This document shows, one piece after another, positions 14,993 through 28,504 of a stretch of 41,344 bases of DNA. The DNA comes from Dehalococcoidia bacterium. GTDB taxonomy: Bacteria; Chloroflexota; Dehalococcoidia; UBA2979. Each line of letters begins with the position of its first letter. The stretch's first letter is position 1. Both the position numbers and the translations under genes were made by a program. Under the pieces are notes generated by a model. That model was not told where the DNA came from and made no database searches. It saw nothing but the letters and a program-made list of their open reading frames with translations. The stretch lies in NCBI GenBank assembly GCA_022451865.1, contig JAKUNM010000006.1, forward strand, positions 1 to 41,344, in the 5' to 3' direction.

Positions 14993-16216
14993 ATGCACAA
15001 AATTTTTGAAGCTTTGACTATTCGTAGTTATGCAATTCTCTGGGCAGGATCTCTGTTTACATTTACAGCATTTTTTATGTCAACTGTTGTCCAGTCAATT
15101 ATTGCATTCGAACTAACTGGTCGAAACAGTGCAGTTGGAGCAGTACTACTTGCTCAAGGGATCGGTTCAGCTGTTTTTTCACCCTTTGGAGGAGCAATAG
15201 CCGATCGAGTCTCCAAAAAATTCATTAGCACACTAAGCCAATTAGCGATTGCTGCAGTCTTTTTCGTTACTGCATATTTAATTTATCAAGATCAAATCGA
15301 ACTTTATCATCTCTCTATTGGTGCGTTCGTTACTGGTGCAAGTTTTGCCTTTTTAGGTCCTGCACGCCAAGCATGGGTTGTCGAACTCTTACCTCTTGCT
15401 TTAAGGCCAAATGCGGTTGCACTCACACAAATCTCTCTTAGTGCAGCTCGAATATGGGCACCTGCACTGGCGACATTACTTGTAGCAAGTCTTTTATTCG
15501 GATCAGCCGGAGCTTATTGTGTAATGGGTATACTCTTTACAATTGCCACAATTACTTTATTTTTCTTGCCAGCATCAATACCAGAAAATTCCCATAAAGA
15601 TAATTCTATTTTTGGAGATATGATAGAAGGGATAAAGTATGTAAAACAGCATTCAAGATTAAAATGGATGCTTACTCTTTTCTTCATAATGGTCATACTA
15701 GGTTTGTCATCGACGACTGTACTACCTGGTCTACTCGAGAATGAGCTCAATAAACCAGTCGAGCAATTAGGTACACTTCAAACTGTTAATGCACTCGGAG
15801 GATTAATTGCAAGCCTACTCGTTGCCTCTTTCGCAGGATCAAAAAAAGCTCTCTTCATATACACATTAGGAGCTTTACTCAGTGGAATTGCACTAGTTAT
15901 TACAGGCCTTAGTCCAACTTTTATCATCGTACTCATTCCAATGTTGTTACTAGGGTTAGGTAATGGAGCTTTCCAAACGCTAAATGGTGCAGTAATAGTA
16001 TTAGAGGCAGATCCAGCTTTTTATGGACGCGTTATTTCAATTACACAACTAGCATTCTCAGGATTTATGCTCGCAGGTTTACCGATTGGACTAGCAGCTG
16101 ATCACTGGGGCGAACGTAACACGCTCATAGCAATCGGTTTAACATTAATTTTAGCTGTGCTCGTACTTTCTCCTCTCATCGCAAGAGGATCACGATCGAA
16201 TATCGTCAATAATTAG
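14993..16216 (+). CDS. MFS transporter (EntS-like/MFS_3 type)
   Basis: A 407-residue integral membrane protein with about 12 hydrophobic segments in two groups of six, separated by a hydrophilic stretch near residues 195-220 (SIPENSHKDNSIFGDM). The loop GGAIADRVSKK after the second segment is the family's conserved loop 2-3 motif. The overall pattern (a first helix with SYAILWAGSLFT, DRVSKKF, PARQAWVVELLP) resembles the drug/siderophore-exporter branch of the MFS. The substrate is unknown. No clear Shine-Dalgarno precedes the ATG. It is transcribed alone, divergent from pyrC. Given the iron genes elsewhere in the window, siderophore export is conceivable, but nothing in the sequence shows it. 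Confidence 0.82.
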   Translation: MHKIFEALTIRSYAILWAGSLFTFTAFFMSTVVQSIIAFELTGRNSAVGAVLLAQGIGSAVFSPFGGAIADRVSKKFISTLSQLAIAAVFFVTAYLIYQDQIELYHLSIGAFVTGASFAFLGPARQAWVVELLPLALRPNAVALTQISLSAARIWAPALATLLVASLLFGSAGAYCVMGILFTIATITLFFLPASIPENSHKDNSIFGDMIEGIKYVKQHSRLKWMLTLFFIMVILGLSSTTVLPGLLENELNKPVEQLGTLQTVNALGGLIASLLVASFAGSKKALFIYTLGALLSGIALVITGLSPTFIIVLIPMLLLGLGNGAFQTLNGAVIVLEADPAFYGRVISITQLAFSGFMLAGLPIGLAADHWGERNTLIAIGLTLILAVLVLSPLIARGSRSNIVNN

Positions 16217-16276: not shown

Positions 16277-16305
16277 TTGACGCTTAGACAAAATATTAGT
16301 ACAAA
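16277..16305 (+). promoter_or_regulatory. Possible promoter of the 1046-residue fusion gene
   Basis: TTGACG at 16277-16282 and TACAAA at 16300-16305 are separated by 17 bases, giving five of six and four of six consensus matches. The predicted leader to the ATG at 16440 would be about 128 bases. The rest of the 223-base gap after the MFS gene shows only a short AGTTT/AAACT repeat near its left end and no small gene. Confidence 0.25.
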
Positions 16306-16439
16306 CTAATTCGATTTGTTATGCATACGAAAAAATAATAGTTAGGCAAACAATTTAAATCAATTAAGGCTGTATACTTTTATAGGAACGTACCTACATT
16401 TTTTATAGATATGTATCCAAAATAATAAGAGGCGAGTGA

Positions 16440-19400
16440 ATGCAAACTCTTTTCAATTTCAGACAGCTGCGGGTAGACGATACACGCATGATTCCAGGCC
16501 CTTCCATAGGAATTGTACGTCTATCCGTAGCTTTATTTATTTCATTTACGATGATCGTTTTTTTATTCTTTTACATTGATACGGATTTATTTAGCAATGG
16601 AATTAAGGAACTTATACAGCGCCCATTACTCGTGGGAACTATTGGATTAATATATTTAAGTGCATTCGTATTAAGAACATTAGCATGGCAATCTCTTCTT
16701 TCTCCAACTACAAAACCAAAGAAAATGTATCTGTTAGCAATTCTCCACACAGCTCTCCTCGCTAATCACGCATTACCTATTAAAGCTGGAGAATTCATAC
16801 GCCCATACTTGGGCAATAAATCAGGCATCCCATCTGGTGAAGCTCTAGTCTCAACACTGCTAGCACGTTTGCTTGATACTGCTGCTTTATTAGCAATAGC
16901 GGCAATGCTCTTACCACTTACTGTAGGTATAGATTCATCAACACCTATTATTTTCCCAGCAATACTAATGCTAATAGCAACTGGAATTTTACTTTGGCTC
17001 AGAAAAACGGATTTTGCACCTAAGCAATCACAAAAGATTAATACTATTTGGATTTCAGCCCAAGAATCACTCAGGACTGTTTCCCTTAACAAAATCTTTA
17101 TTGCAACTTGCCTGACTATCCCGAGTTGGATTTTGGAAGCAGCAGTTGTTTATGGAGCAGCAGAGGCATTAGGCTTTGACCTTTCAATACAAGGTGCAAT
17201 AACAGTTACAGCTTGCACAATACTTTTTCAAATCATTCACCTCACACCAGGAGGAATTGGTATTTATGAAGCAAGTATGACTCTAACATTGCAGTTATTA
17301 GGCATGCCATTCTCTGAAGCATTTACACTTGCAGTATTAACGCACAGTTTGAAATTCATTTATGCTTTCGCGATCGGATTGAGCCCACTAGGGCTCCTCT
17401 ATATCACTGGAATCCCGTCTTTAGGTTCATTACGTGGAAGTAAAGATGATGCCAAATCTGCCAGCAAATTCGAACTCATAGCTGCGCGCTTATGGAATGT
17501 ATTAAATGAAGGCAAGCCATTTACACCTGTCTTCTCATTAGGAATATTATTCTTACTAAGTCTTCCCAATTTCTTTGATGCAAACTATTGGATACATTTA
17601 GGTATTTCATTAATTTTGTTACTACCACTTGTGACAATGTTTTATCGTTTTGACTTTCCATTAAACTTACGTGCAGGTTTATGGCTATTTCTTATACCGG
17701 TCTTCTTTATTACAAATTCTGTTGATTGGGTTGCGCTCACTTTCGTACTAAGTATTTATCTCTTTTTTACAGTCATTTTTTGGGGAAGCATTTATTATCA
17801 CATTCGTATAGGCACAAAATTAACAAACTTCACTCGATTTTGGCGATTAGTAGTTGAGAATCCTGATCCTACAAGTGGCAACTTTTTGGAACAAGTTCCA
17901 AAATTACTCATCCTTATTTTTCTGACACGTTTTTTGACAACAGATCTATCACTTAATTCAGTACTAACAGTAGAGATTTATACTCTGATAATTACTGTAG
18001 CTGCAATACTTATTCACCAATGGTGGTTCACATGGAAACCTTTGGAACCCGTCACACCTACAAGATTAATAAATAATAAAAATGGTCGCATAAGTAAACG
18101 TATAATCCTAATTGTTATTGATGGCTGTAGACTTGATCGCTTCCATGAAGCAAAAACTCCTTTCTTTGACAAGTTAATAGCAGAAGGTACTGTTTGTACA
18201 GATATGCGTACTGTCTATCCAGCACGCACAGTGACAGCTTTTAGTTCAATGCTTACTGGAGCAGTGCCTCGCAACCATGGAATGACAAGTAATTTCGTTC
18301 CGTCACTTGGAGTAAAATGCGAATCAATCTTTGATGTACTCACAGAAAATAATATAGAAAATCGATTGGTTGGAATTGCACATTTAGTAGATGCCTTTGG
18401 AGAAGAAACTGTCGAAACTGTCACAGCACTTACCCCAAATGAAGAAATTGACCCCGCATTAATAGCACAAGCATGTAAAACAATGGATGAGCAAAATCCT
18501 GAATTTTTAGTCTTGCAGACTTTATCCGTTGATCAAACTGGGCATTCACGAGGGAGCTATTACCCTGAATACCTCGAAAAAATTGAAATCACTGATCAAC
18601 TCCTTGAAGAATTCTTTAGTTGGTGCACTGAAAAAGGATATCTAGAAAACACCACTGTTTTTATTACGTCAGATCATGGACAAGGTAAAGGAATTGGAGG
18701 GCATGGACACCTCACAGAACCTGAAAAGCGTGTACCTTTTATTGCTTGGGGAGAGGGAATACAAGCTGGTGATAAAATCACAGAAACACGAAGTTTATTA
18801 GATGTTGCACCAACAGTAGCTTATTACTTAGGAGTCAATCCACCAGAAAATTCAGTAGGACAAGTGTTATTCACTCCTACAGGTCCTAACAATGAATCTA
18901 ATGGACCACTTGCCATAGTCATCCCTGCATACAATGAATCGGTAACCTTACCAACATTACTGACACGAATCCCTACGGAAATAAAAGAAAAATCCGTAAT
19001 CATCGTAGTCGATGATGGATCAAATGATAATACTGCAGAACTTGCACAAAAAAATGGTGCTAACCATATAGTCATACACAAGACAAACCAAGGCCTAGGT
19101 GCAGCATTAAGAAGTGGACTAGCAAAAGCCCGTGAGATAAATGCGTCTGCTGCTATATATATAGACGCAGACCTTGAATATGACCCTCAAGAAATACCTT
19201 TATTATTGGAACCTATTCAATCTGGTGATGCAGAATATGTTTTGGGTTCTCGATTCCTTGGTAAAAGATCAGGTCATCCACTGTGGAGATCTATAGGAAA
19301 TCGCTGTTTCACGGTTCTACTGAACATTATTGCGGGACGAAAAATTTCTGACGGACAAACTGGATTTAGAGCTTTTTCAAAGAATGCTCTTGAAGTGGCC

Positions 19401-19580
19401 GAAATTATTCATGATTACAACTATGCACAAGTATTGACGTTAAATCTCTTAGGAAAAGGCATTTCGATGAAAGAAGTTCCAATTACGTACAACCATCGTA
19501 CGCAAGGACAATCTTTTATTAATACAAACTATCTTTGGCGAGTACCTCTTGGAATGGCCAGAGAAGTATTAAGTAAGTAA
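16440..19580 (+). CDS. Flippase-like membrane domain + alkaline-phosphatase-superfamily + GT2 glycosyltransferase fusion
   Basis: A 1046-residue protein with three modules. Residues about 1-330 form a multi-pass LPG_synthase_TM/AglD-like (UPF0104) domain with LANHALPIKAGEFIRPYLG and the family-typical TPGGIGIYEAS. About 345-545 adds more membrane segments. About 553-810 is a type I phosphodiesterase/phosphatase domain: metal-binding VIDGCR (D561), candidate nucleophile T597 in PARTVTAF, DQTGHSRG, and SDHGQGKG (D745, H746) with a later GHGH. About 823-1046 is a DPM1-like GT2 domain: PLAIVIPAYNES, VVDDGSNDNT and the DAD motif D909/D911. Known members of these families act on lipid-linked substrates at the membrane. 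My inference is a self-contained glycolipid enzyme that makes, moves or trims a polyprenyl-phosphate-linked group. The Shine-Dalgarno AAGAGGCGA supports the start. The next gene starts 23 bases later. Confidence 0.85.
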   Translation: MQTLFNFRQLRVDDTRMIPGPSIGIVRLSVALFISFTMIVFLFFYIDTDLFSNGIKELIQRPLLVGTIGLIYLSAFVLRTLAWQSLLSPTTKPKKMYLLAILHTALLANHALPIKAGEFIRPYLGNKSGIPSGEALVSTLLARLLDTAALLAIAAMLLPLTVGIDSSTPIIFPAILMLIATGILLWLRKTDFAPKQSQKINTIWISAQESLRTVSLNKIFIATCLTIPSWILEAAVVYGAAEALGFDLSIQGAITVTACTILFQIIHLTPGGIGIYEASMTLTLQLLGMPFSEAFTLAVLTHSLKFIYAFAIGLSPLGLLYITGIPSLGSLRGSKDDAKSASKFELIAARLWNVLNEGKPFTPVFSLGILFLLSLPNFFDANYWIHLGISLILLLPLVTMFYRFDFPLNLRAGLWLFLIPVFFITNSVDWVALTFVLSIYLFFTVIFWGSIYYHIRIGTKLTNFTRFWRLVVENPDPTSGNFLEQVPKLLILIFLTRFLTTDLSLNSVLTVEIYTLIITVAAILIHQWWFTWKPLEPVTPTRLINNKNGRISKRIILIVIDGCRLDRFHEAKTPFFDKLIAEGTVCTDMRTVYPARTVTAFSSMLTGAVPRNHGMTSNFVPSLGVKCESIFDVLTENNIENRLVGIAHLVDAFGEETVETVTALTPNEEIDPALIAQACKTMDEQNPEFLVLQTLSVDQTGHSRGSYYPEYLEKIEITDQLLEEFFSWCTEKGYLENTTVFITSDHGQGKGIGGHGHLTEPEKRVPFIAWGEGIQAGDKITETRSLLDVAPTVAYYLGVNPPENSVGQVLFTPTGPNNESNGPLAIVIPAYNESVTLPTLLTRIPTEIKEKSVIIVVDDGSNDNTAELAQKNGANHIVIHKTNQGLGAALRSGLAKAREINASAAIYIDADLEYDPQEIPLLLEPIQSGDAEYVLGSRFLGKRSGHPLWRSIGNRCFTVLLNIIAGRKISDGQTGFRAFSKNALEVAEIIHDYNYAQVLTLNLLGKGISMKEVPITYNHRTQGQSFINTNYLWRVPLGMAREVLSK

Positions 19581-19603
19581 ATAACAACTTGAAAGGAGTT
19601 GTA

Positions 19604-20809
19604 ATGAAAATTACTAAATCTTCGTGGCACATGAAAATTTTTACAATTTTATGTGTCGCACTGCTCAGCTTTGCAGCTGCATGTAGTGATGATGACGGAG
19701 AGGATCGCCCAGGAACTGTTTCCGTTATTGGAGCCAGTGGATCTGGATCGGCCTCTGGATCAGCATCTGGATCAGCATCTGCTTCAGCATCTGGTACATC
19801 TGGATCAGCATCTGGATCAGCATCTGGATCAGCATCTGCTTCACATGCACACGACCACGACCACGCAGCAATCGGTGGTTATGAACCAGCATCTGATGTT
19901 GTAAGTCACTCATTGGTAGTGGTAGATGTAGCAGAAATCAACGCACTGCTCGGTGCAGATAAAATTGATTTTGCAGCAGTAAAAGCGCTTTATGAAGATG
20001 GGAAAAATTCAGTTAAATCATCTGGAATTCGAACCATCGCAGGATTTGCACGTAGTGAACGTTCTGAGCGAATTTGGGACGATTATACTGCGTACTACAA
20101 CGACCAAACTTGGTTAGACACCTATGTAACCCATGCTATTGATGGCACTGGACCATTCGAAGGTGAAGCTGATGGAGTTCGAAAGCAAGGTGTTCAAAAA
20201 GGTATTCAAAACCAAATTATGATTGCCTGGGCACTTCATGAAGTTGTAGCTGCTGAAGAAAAGGTCGCTGCAGGAAATATTGATGTAAATAAAGGTGCTC
20301 CGCATAACTGGGATGAATGGTGGGCTTTCTACCATGGAGACAACGATGCAGCACCTAAAGGCTCGCCTTTTGCAACAGCTGATAAAAGAGGTGGGAATTT
20401 TGGAACAGGTTCTGCTGTGAACGATGCTTTATTGAAAGCAACGAACGAAGGACTTGAAGCAAGTAAGAGTGGAGATGCATCAGCTTTAGCTGCTGCAGCT
20501 GACGAAATACTACGACAAGTAACTATCACTTATGTTCAAGCAACCATCCGTTACGGAAGTAAAATGCAAGCTGATCTTGAAGCTGGAGATGATGCAAAAG
20601 CTCGTATCCATCAAGCTGAAGGTTGGGCTTTCTTCCGTGTCATTGAGCCTCTCGTAGCTAAGGCAAATGCCTCCAGTGCGAAAGATCTTAATGCCATCTA
20701 CAACTTAGAAAACCAACCTTCTAAGTCAGCAGATAAGGTACTTAGTGCCATAGAAGCTGCATATAGTGGTTTGAACATCACTAAAGCAGAAGTAGGAACT
20801 TTACAATAA
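19604..20809 (+). CDS. Lipoprotein with Ser/Gly/Ala linker, His cluster and Fea1-like (iron assimilation) domain
   Basis: A roughly 401-residue exported protein. The ATG at 19604 follows AAAGGAGTT; a TTG at 19589 extends the frame but lies before that site. Residues 10-27 form a lipoprotein signal peptide ending LLSFAAAC, so C27 would be lipidated. Residues about 44-80 are a Ser-Ala-Ser-Gly repeat linker, followed by HAHDHDH (81-87), a likely metal-binding cluster. The globular part resembles the low-iron-inducible periplasmic protein Fea1/H43 of green algae: VDVAEINALLG, VKALYEDGKNSVKSSG, the aromatic/acidic GAPHNWDEWWAFYHG segment, and ADKRGGNFGTGS. This family recognition is from memory. 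Fea1 proteins assist iron uptake, and a ferric ABC transporter lies 4-9 kb away. The role here is inferred. Confidence 0.65.
   Translation: MKITKSSWHMKIFTILCVALLSFAAACSDDDGEDRPGTVSVIGASGSGSASGSASGSASASASGTSGSASGSASGSASASHAHDHDHAAIGGYEPASDVVSHSLVVVDVAEINALLGADKIDFAAVKALYEDGKNSVKSSGIRTIAGFARSERSERIWDDYTAYYNDQTWLDTYVTHAIDGTGPFEGEADGVRKQGVQKGIQNQIMIAWALHEVVAAEEKVAAGNIDVNKGAPHNWDEWWAFYHGDNDAAPKGSPFATADKRGGNFGTGSAVNDALLKATNEGLEASKSGDASALAAAADEILRQVTITYVQATIRYGSKMQADLEAGDDAKARIHQAEGWAFFRVIEPLVAKANASSAKDLNAIYNLENQPSKSADKVLSAIEAAYSGLNITKAEVGTLQ
19739..19841 (+). repeat. In-frame tandem repeat encoding a Ser/Gly/Ala linker
   Basis: About eight copies of a 12-base unit close to GGATCAGCATCT, with some copies diverged to GCTTCAGCATCT and GGTACATCTGGA. 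It is wholly within the lipoprotein gene, and each unit adds four residues (Gly/Ala-Ser-Ala-Ser). Copy-number change by slippage would lengthen or shorten the linker without breaking the frame. Confidence 0.85.
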
Positions 20810-20823
20810 TAAAGTTTCATTAG

Positions 20824-20853
20824 TTCTAGGGGGACGATATCGTCCCCCTAGAA
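20824..20853 (+). terminator. Perfect 30-bp palindrome after the Fea1-like gene
   Basis: The arms (20824-20838 and 20839-20853) are exactly complementary over 15 bases with no spacer, including a run of five G and five C. In RNA this gives a very stable GC-rich hairpin 14 bases after the lipoprotein stop. There is no T-tract, so it may act as a factor-dependent terminator or as an mRNA 3'-end stabilizer; as DNA it could be an operator. It ends only eight bases before an ATG of the next gene. Confidence 0.5.
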
Positions 20854-20861
20854 TCATATAA

Positions 20862-21659
20862 ATGGAAAATAAAATGACAAAAATAACGATCGCAGGATAT
20901 GGTTCAGTAGGTCATTATGTGGCAAAAATATTTGATGATTACAACCCTGTTATATATGACCCTCCACTTGGTTATAACGAACCGAACGATTTAATTGATA
21001 CTGATTTTGTAATTGTATGTGTCCCTACAGCACGTCTTCTTTCAGGTGCGTGTGATACATCAATTGTTGAAGAAATAGTCAGGCTTGCAGATCCAAATGA
21101 TGCGATTATTTGCCATAGCACAATTAGTGTAGGGACAACCGATAGATTAATTAAAGAAACAGGAAAACCATTAGTTTTTATGCCAGAATATGCTGGAGAA
21201 TCTGAAATACACCCTCTGAGAAATCCTGACAACCGTGAATTCTTAATATATGGAGGTTATGGACCTGCGGTTTCAAAAGTACAATCCCTCTACGAAAACG
21301 TATATACCAATAACAACATCCAGCACTTCCCTACAGAACCAAAAACTGCAGAAATTGTGAAATACATGGAGAATGCTTTTTTGGCAACAAAAGTCGCCTT
21401 CTGTAATGAATTCTATGATCTCTGTGAAGCAACTGATGTTGATTATGAAGAAGTAAAATCACTTTGGCTTCAAGATAACCGAATCAATCAAAGTCATACT
21501 ATCGTTACAAAAGAACGCGGATTTGGCGGACAATGTCTACCTAAAGATTTAGCTGCTATTTGTAATACTGCACGAAATATTGGCTCCCCTATGCACATAC
21601 TGGAAGCGGTGGAAGAGGCAAACAATCATCATCGACAAAAAGCACAAGGTAAAATTTAG
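20862..21659 (+). CDS. Short UDP-glucose/GDP-mannose dehydrogenase-like protein lacking the C-terminal domain
   Basis: A 265-residue protein (261 if the ATG at 20874 is used, which has a slightly better GGAAAA site). The NAD-binding Rossmann motif AGYGSVGHYV is at 11-20, with VCVPTA and HSTISVGTTDRL following. The middle helical domain has VKYMENAFLATKVAFCNEFY and the catalytic GFGGQCLPKD with C225, K228 and D229. Ordinary family members are about 400-450 residues and close with a nucleotide-sugar-binding C-terminal domain, which is absent: the chain stops about 35 residues after the catalytic Cys. It may be a distinct short subfamily, may use a different substrate, or may have lost activity. 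It is directly abutted by the next gene and lies among envelope-glycan genes. Confidence 0.75.
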   Translation: MENKMTKITIAGYGSVGHYVAKIFDDYNPVIYDPPLGYNEPNDLIDTDFVIVCVPTARLLSGACDTSIVEEIVRLADPNDAIICHSTISVGTTDRLIKETGKPLVFMPEYAGESEIHPLRNPDNREFLIYGGYGPAVSKVQSLYENVYTNNNIQHFPTEPKTAEIVKYMENAFLATKVAFCNEFYDLCEATDVDYEEVKSLWLQDNRINQSHTIVTKERGFGGQCLPKDLAAICNTARNIGSPMHILEAVEEANNHHRQKAQGKI

Positions 21660-24640: not shown

Positions 24641-26293
24641 CTAACGTAAGTGAATTGCATTACGAATAACAACTAACCAAGTCAACACTGCTGACAAAAT
24701 AACCAATAACAATGATGCCACTCCTGCATCAGCCAAAAATCCTGCTTCATTAAGAGCCCAAATATGAGTGGCCAGTGTCTTAAATCCTATTGGTGAGGCA
24801 AGTAATGTAGCAGGAAGTTCTTTCATAGTTGAGAGCATCACCAAACCTCCACCTGCTGCCAAAGCAGGTAACATTTGAGGAAGTTCAATTTTTATCAATA
24901 ATAGCAATCGACCGGTACCAAGAGTACGTGCTACCTCACTGAGACGATTGTCAAGATTTAAAACTCCAACTTGAGCTGTTCGATATGCCTGTGCACCAAA
25001 ATGGATAATATATGCAAGTAGTAATATCGGTAATGTTTGATAGAGAAAATAGAACCCTGTGACATTGATAGATAGAAAAACTATTGATAATGCAACCACT
25101 AAACCAGGTAAAGCGAAGCCTGACACGATTATCGCATTAATGGGAGTAATTAAAATACTGCGAAAACGTGTCACAAGAAAAGCAATTGGCAGTACTAAAA
25201 GTACAGTGGTTAAAGCTGCAGAAACGCTCATAACTACAGTATTAACTGTAGGTAAAGCAAGTGTCATCAAATCTGAAGTAGTCGCAAACCCAGCAGTTTG
25301 ATTAATGAAACCTCTATATGCCCACCAAAAAAGAATAATAATTGGTGAAAATAATCCCGCGCCAAGTGCAATTACTATTGTAAACAACGCCATTGGTTGC
25401 CAACGTCCTAATTTAAGTTTAGTAGGACGAATAGAAGGATTGTCATTTACCAAATTTAATTCCTTACTGGAAAATCTTTCACCTAAAACAATTAACAATG
25501 CTACAAGTCCTAAAACCAAACCTAACGCCAAGGACAATTCAGTATCAGCCAAGCGTGTATTGAATATTCTAGTTGTCAGTGTAGAATATCCCATCAGTTG
25601 AACTACGCCGAAATCACTCACTACATACAAAAAAATCAATAGCGTCCCTGCACGTATAGTAGGAAAAATTTGAGGTAAAGTTACACGTTTAAAAGTGGCA
25701 AATGAGTTATAACCCAATAAACGAGCTGCTTCTTCAGTTGAAGATGGCAGTGTAGAAAACCGAGCAGCTACTGGTAAATACACATAAGGAAACGTTATAA
25801 AAGTTAATACTAAAAAAGAACCAATATAGCCATCAAGTCTATGAAATTGCTCAATACCAAGTGGTAAAAATATAAACTCAAAAAAACCACCTGGCGAGTA
25901 AGCAGAAATTAGAGTGGTACCAACGACAAACGAGGGGAAAACCAAAGGTAACGGACACAAAATCCGCCATAATGACCCCCAGTGTACATCAGTACGAATA
26001 GTAATCCATGCCAACAATACACCAATGAAAGAAGCAGCAATTGAAACAGTAAATGCTAAATAGAGAGTTTTCATTAAAGGGTAGAAAGTTAATTTGGAAA
26101 AGAAAATATTCGCCAGATCATTAATATTGACTATATTACGCACTGCCAAATAAAAAAATGGAACGGCAAACAACAGGGCAACAACAATAGACACTAGAAG
26201 TAAAAGAACAGGTGTTTTTTCTTTTACCTCTAGTGCACTAAATGAATTCTTATCTTCACTATCAGATCGACTAAATATCGAATCCTGCCTCAC
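24641..26293 (-). CDS. fbpB: Ferric iron ABC transporter permease (FbpB-type, two permease domains)
   Basis: A 550-residue membrane protein with about 12 segments and two BPD-type permease halves. EAA loops that dock the ATPase are visible in each half: STEEAARLLGYNSFATFKRV (about 180-199) and RLSEVARTLGTGRLLLLIKI (about 458-477). A fused double permease is typical of FbpB/FutB/AfuB iron importers. The start is GTG at 26291-26293 with TGGAG upstream. The coding region overlaps the end of the binding-protein gene by 23 bases, so translation is probably coupled. It is the last gene of the iron operon; the VOC gene starts 33 bases beyond its stop. Confidence 0.88.
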   Translation of the reverse strand: MRQDSIFSRSDSEDKNSFSALEVKEKTPVLLLLVSIVVALLFAVPFFYLAVRNIVNINDLANIFFSKLTFYPLMKTLYLAFTVSIAASFIGVLLAWITIRTDVHWGSLWRILCPLPLVFPSFVVGTTLISAYSPGGFFEFIFLPLGIEQFHRLDGYIGSFLVLTFITFPYVYLPVAARFSTLPSSTEEAARLLGYNSFATFKRVTLPQIFPTIRAGTLLIFLYVVSDFGVVQLMGYSTLTTRIFNTRLADTELSLALGLVLGLVALLIVLGERFSSKELNLVNDNPSIRPTKLKLGRWQPMALFTIVIALGAGLFSPIIILFWWAYRGFINQTAGFATTSDLMTLALPTVNTVVMSVSAALTTVLLVLPIAFLVTRFRSILITPINAIIVSGFALPGLVVALSIVFLSINVTGFYFLYQTLPILLLAYIIHFGAQAYRTAQVGVLNLDNRLSEVARTLGTGRLLLLIKIELPQMLPALAAGGGLVMLSTMKELPATLLASPIGFKTLATHIWALNEAGFLADAGVASLLLVILSAVLTWLVVIRNAIHLR

Positions 26294-27296
26294 GAATCAA
26301 CTCCAGAGTACGTTCTAATCCACTTCCCAATATATTAAAATCACCGAAATCAATTGTAGGTGGTTTAGAAAGATCATGCTTCGATTCTATGCCTGCTAGT
26401 ACAGGATATTCGTATGTACGATCAGTAAAATACTGCTGAGCTGCTGTGTCTAACAAAAAGCGAATGAGTTTTTCAGCATTTTTTTCATTTCCACCAGGAA
26501 TTATACCCGCAACAGTTGCAATAGTTACAGAACCAGAATCACCATCAACAAATCGATGATTCTCACTAGGGGTATCTGGATTTTCTACTTTTAGGCGAGC
26601 ATTATAATAGTGATTCACGAGACCACCATCTACTTCACCACGTGCAGTGGCTTGAACTATTGAATTGTTATTTGCATAGACCTTAACCTCATTTGCAACC
26701 ATTTGTTTCAGCCAATCAAGTGCAACATCATCTCCATGTTTCAGGCGAAATAGAGTAAAGAAATCTTGAAATGATCCATTTCTTGGAGCAATTGCCAATC
26801 TGCCTTTCCATTTAGCTTCAGTGAGTTCAAAAACACTTTCTGGCAATTCAGATTCTGTAACATTCTCTCGATTATAGACTAGTACACGTTGACGGCCGCT
26901 TACTGCGACCCAATTGCCTGCATCACTCCCCGGGCTAATTGCTAGCACATCTTCTGGAAGATCACTTAGTAAATCACGTTCTGCCAAGTATGCAACTGGA
27001 CCTGGGCTCTTTGATATATAGACATCAGCAGGAGATTTTTCTCCTTCTTCTTCAATAAGCAAAGCCAAATCTACAGAACCGCCATAACGGACTTGTACAT
27101 CTATACCTGTGCTTTCAGCAAAAGAATCAAGAATTGGATTTATCAAGTATTGACTTCGACCAGAATAAATCACAAGGCTTTCTTCATCAGTACTATTGCA
27201 ACCAACAAAAGCACTTGAGACAAACATCATTCCAAGAAAAAAGTATATATATTTTTTCACTATCAGGTTAACCTTTCTTTTGTAATTAGGGTGCAT
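26271..27296 (-). CDS. fbpA: Ferric iron ABC transporter substrate-binding lipoprotein (FutA/FbpA-type)
   Basis: A 341-residue extracytoplasmic solute-binding protein. The lipoprotein signal ends in SSAFVGC (C33), followed by SLVIYSGRSQYL, the first strand of the Fe3+-binding FutA/FbpA family. The tandem tyrosines Y230-Y231 in LVNHYYNAR are the family's iron ligands. ADVYISKSPGP and AAQQYFTDRTYEYPV also match. The ATG at 27296 gives a 12-residue extension before an in-frame GTG at 27258-27260 that would open KKYIYFFLG directly; either is possible and the GTG gives a more normal signal peptide. It is the middle gene of the operon, between the ATPase (51 bases upstream) and the permease (overlapping). 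Confidence 0.9.
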   Translation of the reverse strand: MHPNYKRKVNLIVKKYIYFFLGMMFVSSAFVGCNSTDEESLVIYSGRSQYLINPILDSFAESTGIDVQVRYGGSVDLALLIEEEGEKSPADVYISKSPGPVAYLAERDLLSDLPEDVLAISPGSDAGNWVAVSGRQRVLVYNRENVTESELPESVFELTEAKWKGRLAIAPRNGSFQDFFTLFRLKHGDDVALDWLKQMVANEVKVYANNNSIVQATARGEVDGGLVNHYYNARLKVENPDTPSENHRFVDGDSGSVTIATVAGIIPGGNEKNAEKLIRFLLDTAAQQYFTDRTYEYPVLAGIESKHDLSKPPTIDFGDFNILGSGLERTLELIREAGFDI

Positions 27297-27347: not shown

Positions 27348-28442
27348 TTAACTATTTACAGATTGGTAAGCCATTGTTGGAGGGCCAACATAACGGACAG
27401 AAACATAATCTCCAGTTTGATAAATCGGATTAGTGAATGATCTCACTTGTAGAGTCTTCTCTTCTTCGCCTTTAAGTTGATACATCGAATCATGCCCATA
27501 AAATTCAACTGACGAAACTAACCAATTTCCTCCTGATTGAATTTCCAAGCATTCCGGCCGTAAAAGTACGTCAACAGAAGAACCTGCTGCACAATCCAAC
27601 TGGTCAGATAACGGAACAGAGCCAAGGGAAGTTATTACACTTTGATTATCAGTTGATCCTGAGACCATATTAGCTTCACCCACAAACTGAGCAACCCAAG
27701 GATCTATAGGTTGCTCATAAATTGTACTAGGCACATCAATTTGGAGAATTCGACCTTCATTCATTACTGCAATTTCATCACCTAAAACAAATGCTTCACC
27801 CTGATCATGTGTAACAAACAGACTTGTAATATTTAGATCCTGAAGTAATTGACGTACTTCTGTACGCAATTGAACACGCATAGATGCATCAAGACTTGCG
27901 AAAGGTTCGTCAAGCAGTAGAACAGATGGCTCTGGGGCCAAGGCGCGTGCGAGTGCTACACGCTGGCGTTCTCCACCGGAAAGATTATCAGGTGCACGGT
28001 TTGCCATCGCTGTTAAACCAACCATCTCAAGAACATCTTTCACACGATTATCACGATCAAAACTATTACTTAAACCAAAGCGAACATTTTCAGCAACTGT
28101 GAGATGAGGGAACAATGCGCCGTCTTGAAAAACCATTCCAACACGGCGTTTTTCAGCTGGAACAAAACAATCTGGAGATGTGACCGCATTTCCATCTATT
28201 GTAATTACACCAGTATCTAGTTTCTCTAAACCAGCAATAGATCGGAGTAACGTAGTCTTACCACATCCCGATGGACCCAATAAAGCTATAGATTGACCGG
28301 CTTCTACATTAAGAGAAACACCACGCAATACACTTACAGCGCCAAAATTGAAATATGCATCTTCAATTTTGATACTAGATGTATTGCCATTTCCTGAAAA
28401 AAAACCCTGCTCTTGCATAAAATACATGCTACCAAGCATCAA
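27348..28442 (-). CDS. fbpC: Ferric iron ABC transporter ATP-binding protein (FbpC-type)
   Basis: A 364-residue ABC ATPase. Walker A is GPSGCGKTT (56-64), the Q-loop is VFQDG, the signature is LSGGERQ (154-160), Walker B is LLLDEP (175-180) and the switch histidine is H212 in VTHDQGEA. A C-terminal TOBE-type domain (about 270-360, with VLLRPECLEI) matches the FbpC/PotA/CysA group. The binding protein and permease downstream identify it as an iron importer. The first 20 residues before SSIKIEDAYFNFG are not conserved, and the ATG at 28442 lacks a Shine-Dalgarno, so an internal ATG may be used. It is the first gene of the operon, whose upstream region holds the TTAGG/CCTAA palindrome. Confidence 0.88.
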   Translation of the reverse strand: MMLGSMYFMQEQGFFSGNGNTSSIKIEDAYFNFGAVSVLRGVSLNVEAGQSIALLGPSGCGKTTLLRSIAGLEKLDTGVITIDGNAVTSPDCFVPAEKRRVGMVFQDGALFPHLTVAENVRFGLSNSFDRDNRVKDVLEMVGLTAMANRAPDNLSGGERQRVALARALAPEPSVLLLDEPFASLDASMRVQLRTEVRQLLQDLNITSLFVTHDQGEAFVLGDEIAVMNEGRILQIDVPSTIYEQPIDPWVAQFVGEANMVSGSTDNQSVITSLGSVPLSDQLDCAAGSSVDVLLRPECLEIQSGGNWLVSSVEFYGHDSMYQLKGEEEKTLQVRSFTNPIYQTGDYVSVRYVGPPTMAYQSVNS

Positions 28443-28490: not shown

Positions 28491-28504
28491 TTAGGGTACC
28501 CTAA
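28491..28504. promoter_or_regulatory. Perfect 14-bp palindrome, possible iron-regulator operator
   Basis: TTAGGGTACCCTAA is exactly self-complementary and lies 49-62 bases upstream of the iron ABC ATPase start. On the minus strand a TATAGT follows within about 20 bases (28471-28476), so the palindrome would overlap the -35 region of that promoter. The half-sites TTAGG and CCTAA are those of DtxR/IdeR-family metalloregulator boxes, although the spacing is shorter than the classic 19-bp box. The site also lies in the 88-base gap after hemL. Regulator identity is inference. Confidence 0.42.

Follow-up and report, generated by a model that had tools for sequence, protein, structure and literature searches.

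What does a protein do that joins a flippase-like membrane domain, a phosphoesterase and a glycosyltransferase in a single chain? Such a protein is encoded in the 41,344-nucleotide stretch of a Dehalococcoidia bacterium contig analysed here (JAKUNM010000006.1; hereafter, the window). The reading that we favour, with a probability of roughly 0.55, is that it would unite in one chain the three components of a conserved system whose task in the iron-starvation response is to make a lipid-linked sugar and export it, aiding iron delivery. The gene and its parts are:

16440 to 19580, forward strand: three-part fusion ORF (ATG start, 1046 aa), in the order flippase-like domain, six transmembrane (TM) helices with an alkaline phosphatase (AP)-superfamily phosphoesterase, and DPM1-like GT2
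16530 to 17378, forward strand: PF03706 (LPG_synthase_TM) flippase-like domain, residues 31-313, from Pfam
17454 to 18029, forward strand: membrane module, residues 339-530, six predicted TM helices, N-in/C-in, from hydropathy and AF2
18096 to 18869, forward strand: AP-superfamily (NPP-like) domain, residues 553-810, from Pfam, conserved residues and fold match
18909 to 19565, forward strand: GT2 domain, residues 824-1042, with DPMS and ArnC as nearest solved structures, from Pfam, sequence and fold

All Pfam domain matches of the protein were above their cut-offs. The first domain belongs to PF03706 (1.1e-31; 110.9 bits against a cut-off of 33.4, covering profile positions 4-302 of 302). The second catalytic region was matched by Phosphodiest from residue 556 (3.5e-27), Sulfatase (566-798) and Metalloenzyme (553-800), and the third by Glycos_transf_2 (826-985, 4.4e-25). 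In the AP domain, residues D561, T597, D698, H702, D745, H746 and H755 were conserved in 100% of 80 homologues, so that the two-metal ligand set (D, T, D, H / D, H, H) and the Thr nucleophile of an NPP-like enzyme are complete. Four of these (D561, T597, D745 and H746) had been pointed out in the initial annotation, and D698, H702 and H755 complete the metal site. The D909/D911 pair of the GT2 domain, a DXD metal motif, was conserved in 97% of 80 sequences. The domain set, its order and the intact active sites that had been proposed for this chain were borne out, and loss of active-site residues in homologues, a weakness considered beforehand, was not seen in the 80 sequences. By family the AP domain would be an NPP-like phosphoesterase, predicted to hydrolyse phosphodiesters: its fold matched 2gsn, and in a Foldseek search with the TM-AP model Xac NPP ranked first and PbgA superposed poorly. 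The GT2 domain is of the DPM1/ArnC type, matching 5mlz by sequence (6.9e-19) and 5mlz and 9asc by fold, with DPMS and ArnC found by Foldseek; its acceptor is probably polyprenyl phosphate.

The gene was found at 96% and 93% identity in two other genomes of the genus, and at 51% and 48% in two of the family. A chance fusion or an assembly error was discarded, since the fusion recurs in these same-genus and same-family genomes and in about 20 other genomes of Dehalococcoidia. An MFS transporter gene (14993-16216, same strand) lies immediately 5' of the fusion, and is a neighbour in both sister genomes too.

On which side of the membrane do the catalytic domains work? Six TM helices precede the AP domain according to hydropathy averaged over the family, combined with the helices modelled by AF2. 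The loops on the N-terminal side were all positive (+3.0, +2.5 and +3.8, followed by the AP linker) while those on the opposite side had a charge of about 0. Two AF2 models had mean pLDDT values of 88.4 (residues 331-817) and 87.5 (whole chain, pTM 0.71). No TM helix separates the AP domain from the GT2 domain, and the GT2 of Bacilli, a protein of about 250 aa, has no leader. Because of this uninterrupted junction, the positive inner loops, the AP-GT2 fusions and the leaderless stand-alone GT2s, both catalytic domains are most likely cytoplasmic. The initial annotation had suspected that the GT2 and phosphatase domains face different sides; topology and structure prediction instead place both in the cytoplasm, and opposite faces were rejected because loop charges, AF2 model and AP-GT2 fusions all speak against them. 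PbgA/YejM, LtaS and EptA also have a TM domain followed by an AP-superfamily domain, but there 5 TM helices carry an extracytoplasmic domain, whereas here 6 helices are predicted to carry a cytoplasmic one that is nearer to NPP. An extracytoplasmic transferase of the LtaS/EptA kind was rejected on the number of helices (6, not 5), the loop charge, and the fusion of the GT2 without an intervening helix.

We scanned about 85,000 species genomes and found 327 loci, of which 79 were retrieved for ORF analysis. The three parts occur in three states. They are fully fused in Dehalococcoidia and in one MAG labelled Elusimicrobia; in Acidimicrobiia, Thermoleophilia and allied MAGs, TM-AP is joined to GT2 and the flippase-like gene, where found (L073), is separate; and in Rubrobacter and Bacillota (Bacillus, Paenibacillus, Fictibacillus, Rossellomorea, Halobacillus and Ca. 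Frackibacter) there are three genes, consecutive and overlapping or almost touching in the majority of loci. The membrane module is located between the flippase-like and AP domains of the fusion, at about residues 361-529; taken as 339-530, it begins at exactly the same point as the TM-AP proteins that Bacilli make separately. Two changes suffice to explain the split, part-fused and fully fused states on the AP-domain tree, some deep branches of which are weak. By sequence comparison, then, the gene is the counterpart, fused into one, of a three-gene operon that is conserved in Bacillota and Actinomycetota. The initial annotation knew of no described function for the three-part order: a domain-architecture search showed that it is not isolated, and no assigned function was found.

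Within the class, the TM-AP module was present in 14 of 294 genomes. Two genomes of the same class (G043 and G108) keep the iron cluster with a flippase-GT2 fusion devoid of the AP module, and the AP module is therefore dispensable or replaceable in them. These AP-less fusions lie inside the same iron cluster (L124:10134-12590 and L125:7539-9344). An amine-oxidase-type FAD protein is encoded in or beside the cluster in these relatives (L125:4706-6094 and L124:13204-15504), and may stand in for the AP function.

The fusion gene has the following neighbours in the window:

19589 to 20809, forward strand: FEA1-related lipoprotein (NF038033, 4.6e-129), 8 bp after the fusion
20862 to 21659, forward strand: short NDP-sugar-dehydrogenase-like protein (265 aa), the sole PF00984 gene found in the genome
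22154 to 23557, reverse strand: polytopic protein of neighbour family c8, probable GT-C-type transferase, with a GDEPFY motif
24641 to 26293, reverse strand: ferric iron importer ABC permease (family c26)
26271 to 27296, reverse strand: FbpA-type Fe3+-binding protein (PDB 7w3w, 2.4e-69)
27348 to 28442, reverse strand: ferric iron importer ABC ATPase (family c9)

The lipoprotein has a Ser-rich stretch behind its signal. Between its gene and that of the short dehydrogenase there is a perfect 15-bp inverted repeat without a loop (20824-20853; TTCTAGGGGGACGAT/ATCGTCCCCCTAGAA), either a terminator or an operator.

Neighbours were clustered by single-linkage BLAST, related genomes being non-independent data points. 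The recurrent partners were FEA1-related lipoproteins (c1), UDP-GlcA-4-epimerase-like SDR proteins (c2), UDP-glucose-dehydrogenase-like proteins, full or short (c7), GT-C-like membrane proteins (c3, c8 and c23), FTR1 (c5) and ferric ABC importers (c6, c26 and c9). The c1 lipoproteins of Bacilli match the FEA1 model only weakly (2.7e-6). In some loci the FEA1-like gene is replaced by a small lipoprotein (c32; L048:7555-8253) that looks cupredoxin-like by eye, a likeness to which we give no weight because the family had no match in Pfam or PDB. Matches to PMT_2 and TMEM260-like protein O-mannosyltransferases were obtained for GT-C-like neighbours, with c3 (7 of its 11 members) and c23 matching PMT_2 in Pfam; c3 gave no match in PDB. 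The c8 family had no match in either database, and is assigned as a probable GT-C-type transferase because of its GDEPFY motif and a weak profile similarity.

Which sugar is loaded? The nearest solved relatives of the c2 epimerases include the UDP-GlcA 4-epimerase of B. cereus (6zl6, 6.2e-51), in which Arg185 holds the carboxylate of UDP-GalA (PMC12338863). This carboxylate-binding Arg is kept in 33 of 36 c2 proteins, as expected of UDP-GlcA 4-epimerases. The short dehydrogenase retains the central domain and the catalytic Cys motif and lacks the C-terminal nucleotide-binding domain; it may oxidise a non-nucleotide sugar, for example a lipid-linked one. Similar short forms are found in Paenibacillus loci. 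The two genes are mutually exclusive, with 36 epimerase loci, 13 short-dehydrogenase loci and none shared (Fisher p 1.7e-4, uncorrected for kinship), which suggests that they provide two routes to one acidic sugar. The loaded sugar is thus probably a uronic acid, e.g. galacturonic acid. The identity of the sugar is less certain in the window genome, since no epimerase was detected there at the search sensitivity used.

A rival reading gives the same parts a different use, namely an iron-responsive remodelling of lipids: a cytoplasmic, phospholipase-C-like AP domain would make diacylglycerol, the GT2 would glycosylate it and the flippase-like domain would move the glycolipid outward. Lipid phosphodiesterases do exist in the NPP family (NPP2 and NPP6 are among the matches), MprF, which handles lipid amino acids, belongs to PF03706, and glucuronosyl-diacylglycerol would suit a uronic-acid donor. 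Yet the GT2 is nearest to the polyprenyl-phosphate enzymes DPMS and ArnC, and the conserved GT-C-type partner requires a polyprenyl-phosphate donor. We consider glycolipid synthesis quite unlikely, and keep to a lipid-linked sugar exported under iron starvation.

The link with iron is found in several groups of bacteria. Of the 294 class genomes, 11 have a member of the FEA1-related family, and 10 of these also bear the glycan system (Fisher p 8e-14, uncorrected). In seven of these ten the FEA1 gene adjoins the three-part gene, in two an AP-less flippase-GT2 fusion is located no more than 6 kb away from it, and in one both genes are at contig ends. Among 20 system-bearing Bacillota genomes of 3-8 Mb, 16 had FTR1 within 10 kb of the system, and for most of the 16 it was the sole FTR1 gene. 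In Frackibacter, ferric ABC genes occupy the position of FTR1. The importer hence differs by group, being FTR1 in Bacilli and an Fe3+ ABC system elsewhere, including the FbpA-type neighbour in the window.

In another reading, a PMT-like GT-C enzyme would attach the sugar to surface proteins, the FEA1/EfeO-like lipoproteins or others, and the glycan itself would not bind iron. The resemblance of the GT-C neighbours to PMT_2 and TMEM260-like O-mannosyltransferases is in line with this, as are the near confinement of FEA1-family genes to these loci and the Ser-rich stretch of the window lipoprotein. Against it, the lipoprotein is absent from operons L062, L076 and L101 but the Fur box is kept. 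Protein glycosylation with no iron-binding role for the glycan is therefore unlikely in our judgement, and a direct contribution of the exported sugar to iron delivery is still preferred.

Operator-like sites point in the same direction. Across loci L056-L111 there were 87 Fur boxes with up to two mismatches, where mononucleotide shuffles led one to expect 6. Most of them, exact boxes included, lie directly 5' of an operon's first gene, either in the glycan operon or in the c4-FTR1 operon. In Fictibacillus, where c1 is missing and no importer is adjacent, the box precedes the epimerase gene, and in L101 it precedes c3. From these boxes upstream of first genes, exact or with 1-2 mismatches, the Bacilli operon is predicted to belong to the Fur regulon and to be induced by iron starvation. 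No classical Fur box was found upstream of the fusion in the Dehalococcoidia loci examined, and a TTAG-N6-CTAA dyad is found instead. The window has two:

16295 to 16310, no strand: TTAG-N6-CTAA dyad ATTAGTACAAACTAAT, a site to which an iron-dependent repressor may bind, about 130 bp upstream of the fusion
28491 to 28504, no strand: TTAG-N6-CTAA dyad TTAGGGTACCCTAA, second and last in the window, 48 bp upstream of the iron ABC operon

Exactly two dyads is not an unusual number for the window, being reached in 24 of 100 shuffles, but their positions are unusual. In Dehalococcoidia and Actinomycetota the dyad precedes the target gene in 10 loci, against 0.21 sites expected (uncorrected for kinship). 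Its half-sites resemble those of the known 19-bp DtxR/IdeR box with a different spacing, and among the regulators encoded in the genome one is of DtxR type and two are of Fur type.

One could argue that this is an ordinary cell-wall or S-layer glycosylation unit that sits beside iron genes by accident: combinations of GT2 and PF03706 are common and serve mostly general glycosylation, and several more GT2 genes are present in the window genome. But iron importers, and differing ones, accompany the unit together with operator-like sites in Chloroflexota, Bacillota and Actinomycetota, and we regard an accidental vicinity as improbable.

The export of a lipid-linked sugar for iron delivery would then proceed as follows. 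On the cytoplasmic face, the GT2 domain would load a sugar, probably a uronic acid (e.g. galacturonic acid), onto polyprenyl phosphate, this sugar being a product of the enzyme encoded nearby, either the UDP-GlcA 4-epimerase or the short dehydrogenase. On the same face, the membrane-anchored AP phosphoesterase would act on a lipid phosphate or pyrophosphate. Its most plausible role is the preparation of the carrier (polyprenyl-PP to polyprenyl-P) or the trimming of the product, and this is the least certain step. The PF03706 domain would bring the lipid-sugar to the outer side, and there the GT-C-like neighbour may transfer the sugar to an acceptor on the surface. Together with the FEA1-like lipoprotein, this acidic product would help bring iron to the adjacent importer (an Fe3+ ABC system here, FTR1 in Bacilli). 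Making and then moving a polyprenyl-phosphate sugar, as the initial annotation had suggested, is still the best reading of the fusion, the carrier and the flipping being predicted.

Known systems share parts of this scheme. In the ArnC/ArnD (deformylase)/ArnE-F/ArnT pathway, a DPM-like GT2 also makes a polyprenyl-phosphate sugar that is modified in the cytoplasm, flipped and used by a GT-C enzyme; the fusion has PF03706 in place of ArnE/F, an AP phosphoesterase in place of the deformylase, and a link to iron import, and no Ara4N enzymes were among the clustered neighbours. AglD and DPM synthases with PF03706 or GtrA-like membrane domains likewise join a DPM1-type GT2 to a multispan domain, but in the fusion the order is reversed and a TM-AP module is added in the middle; G043 and G108, whose fusions lack AP, come nearest to them. 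RgtE with RgtA-D is the dodecaprenyl-phosphate-GalA system of Rhizobium, composed of a DPM-like GT2 and GT-C enzymes. If the sugar were GalA the kind of donor would be the same, but the RgtE gene has neither a flippase or AP module nor a link to iron. EfeUOB/FTR1 and FbpABC importers are neighbours in the same clusters, and no described importer operon with glycan genes was found.

Each part belongs to a known family. In the open-access papers searched, a set that misses most subscription papers, we found no description of the system, nor of the combination, the predicted cytoplasmic AP module or the putative iron regulation. Tentatively, and at somewhat less than even odds, these loci may represent an undescribed strategy of iron acquisition in at least three phyla, in which starved cells would use a cytoplasmic phosphoesterase, a GT2 and a flippase to make a polyprenyl-linked acidic sugar. 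This sugar would cover the cell surface or a lipoprotein, and the iron captured would pass to an importer, either FTR1 or a ferric ABC system. The membrane-bound AP-superfamily enzyme, predicted to be cytoplasmic, contrasts with the extracytoplasmic LtaS/EptA/PbgA type, and the fusion may serve as a one-chain model for the coupling of carrier preparation, sugar loading and flipping. The gene set to which it belongs is a widespread and unnamed group of glycosylation genes, probably tied to iron uptake, with cultivable hosts in Bacillus methanolicus, Paenibacillus and Rossellomorea.
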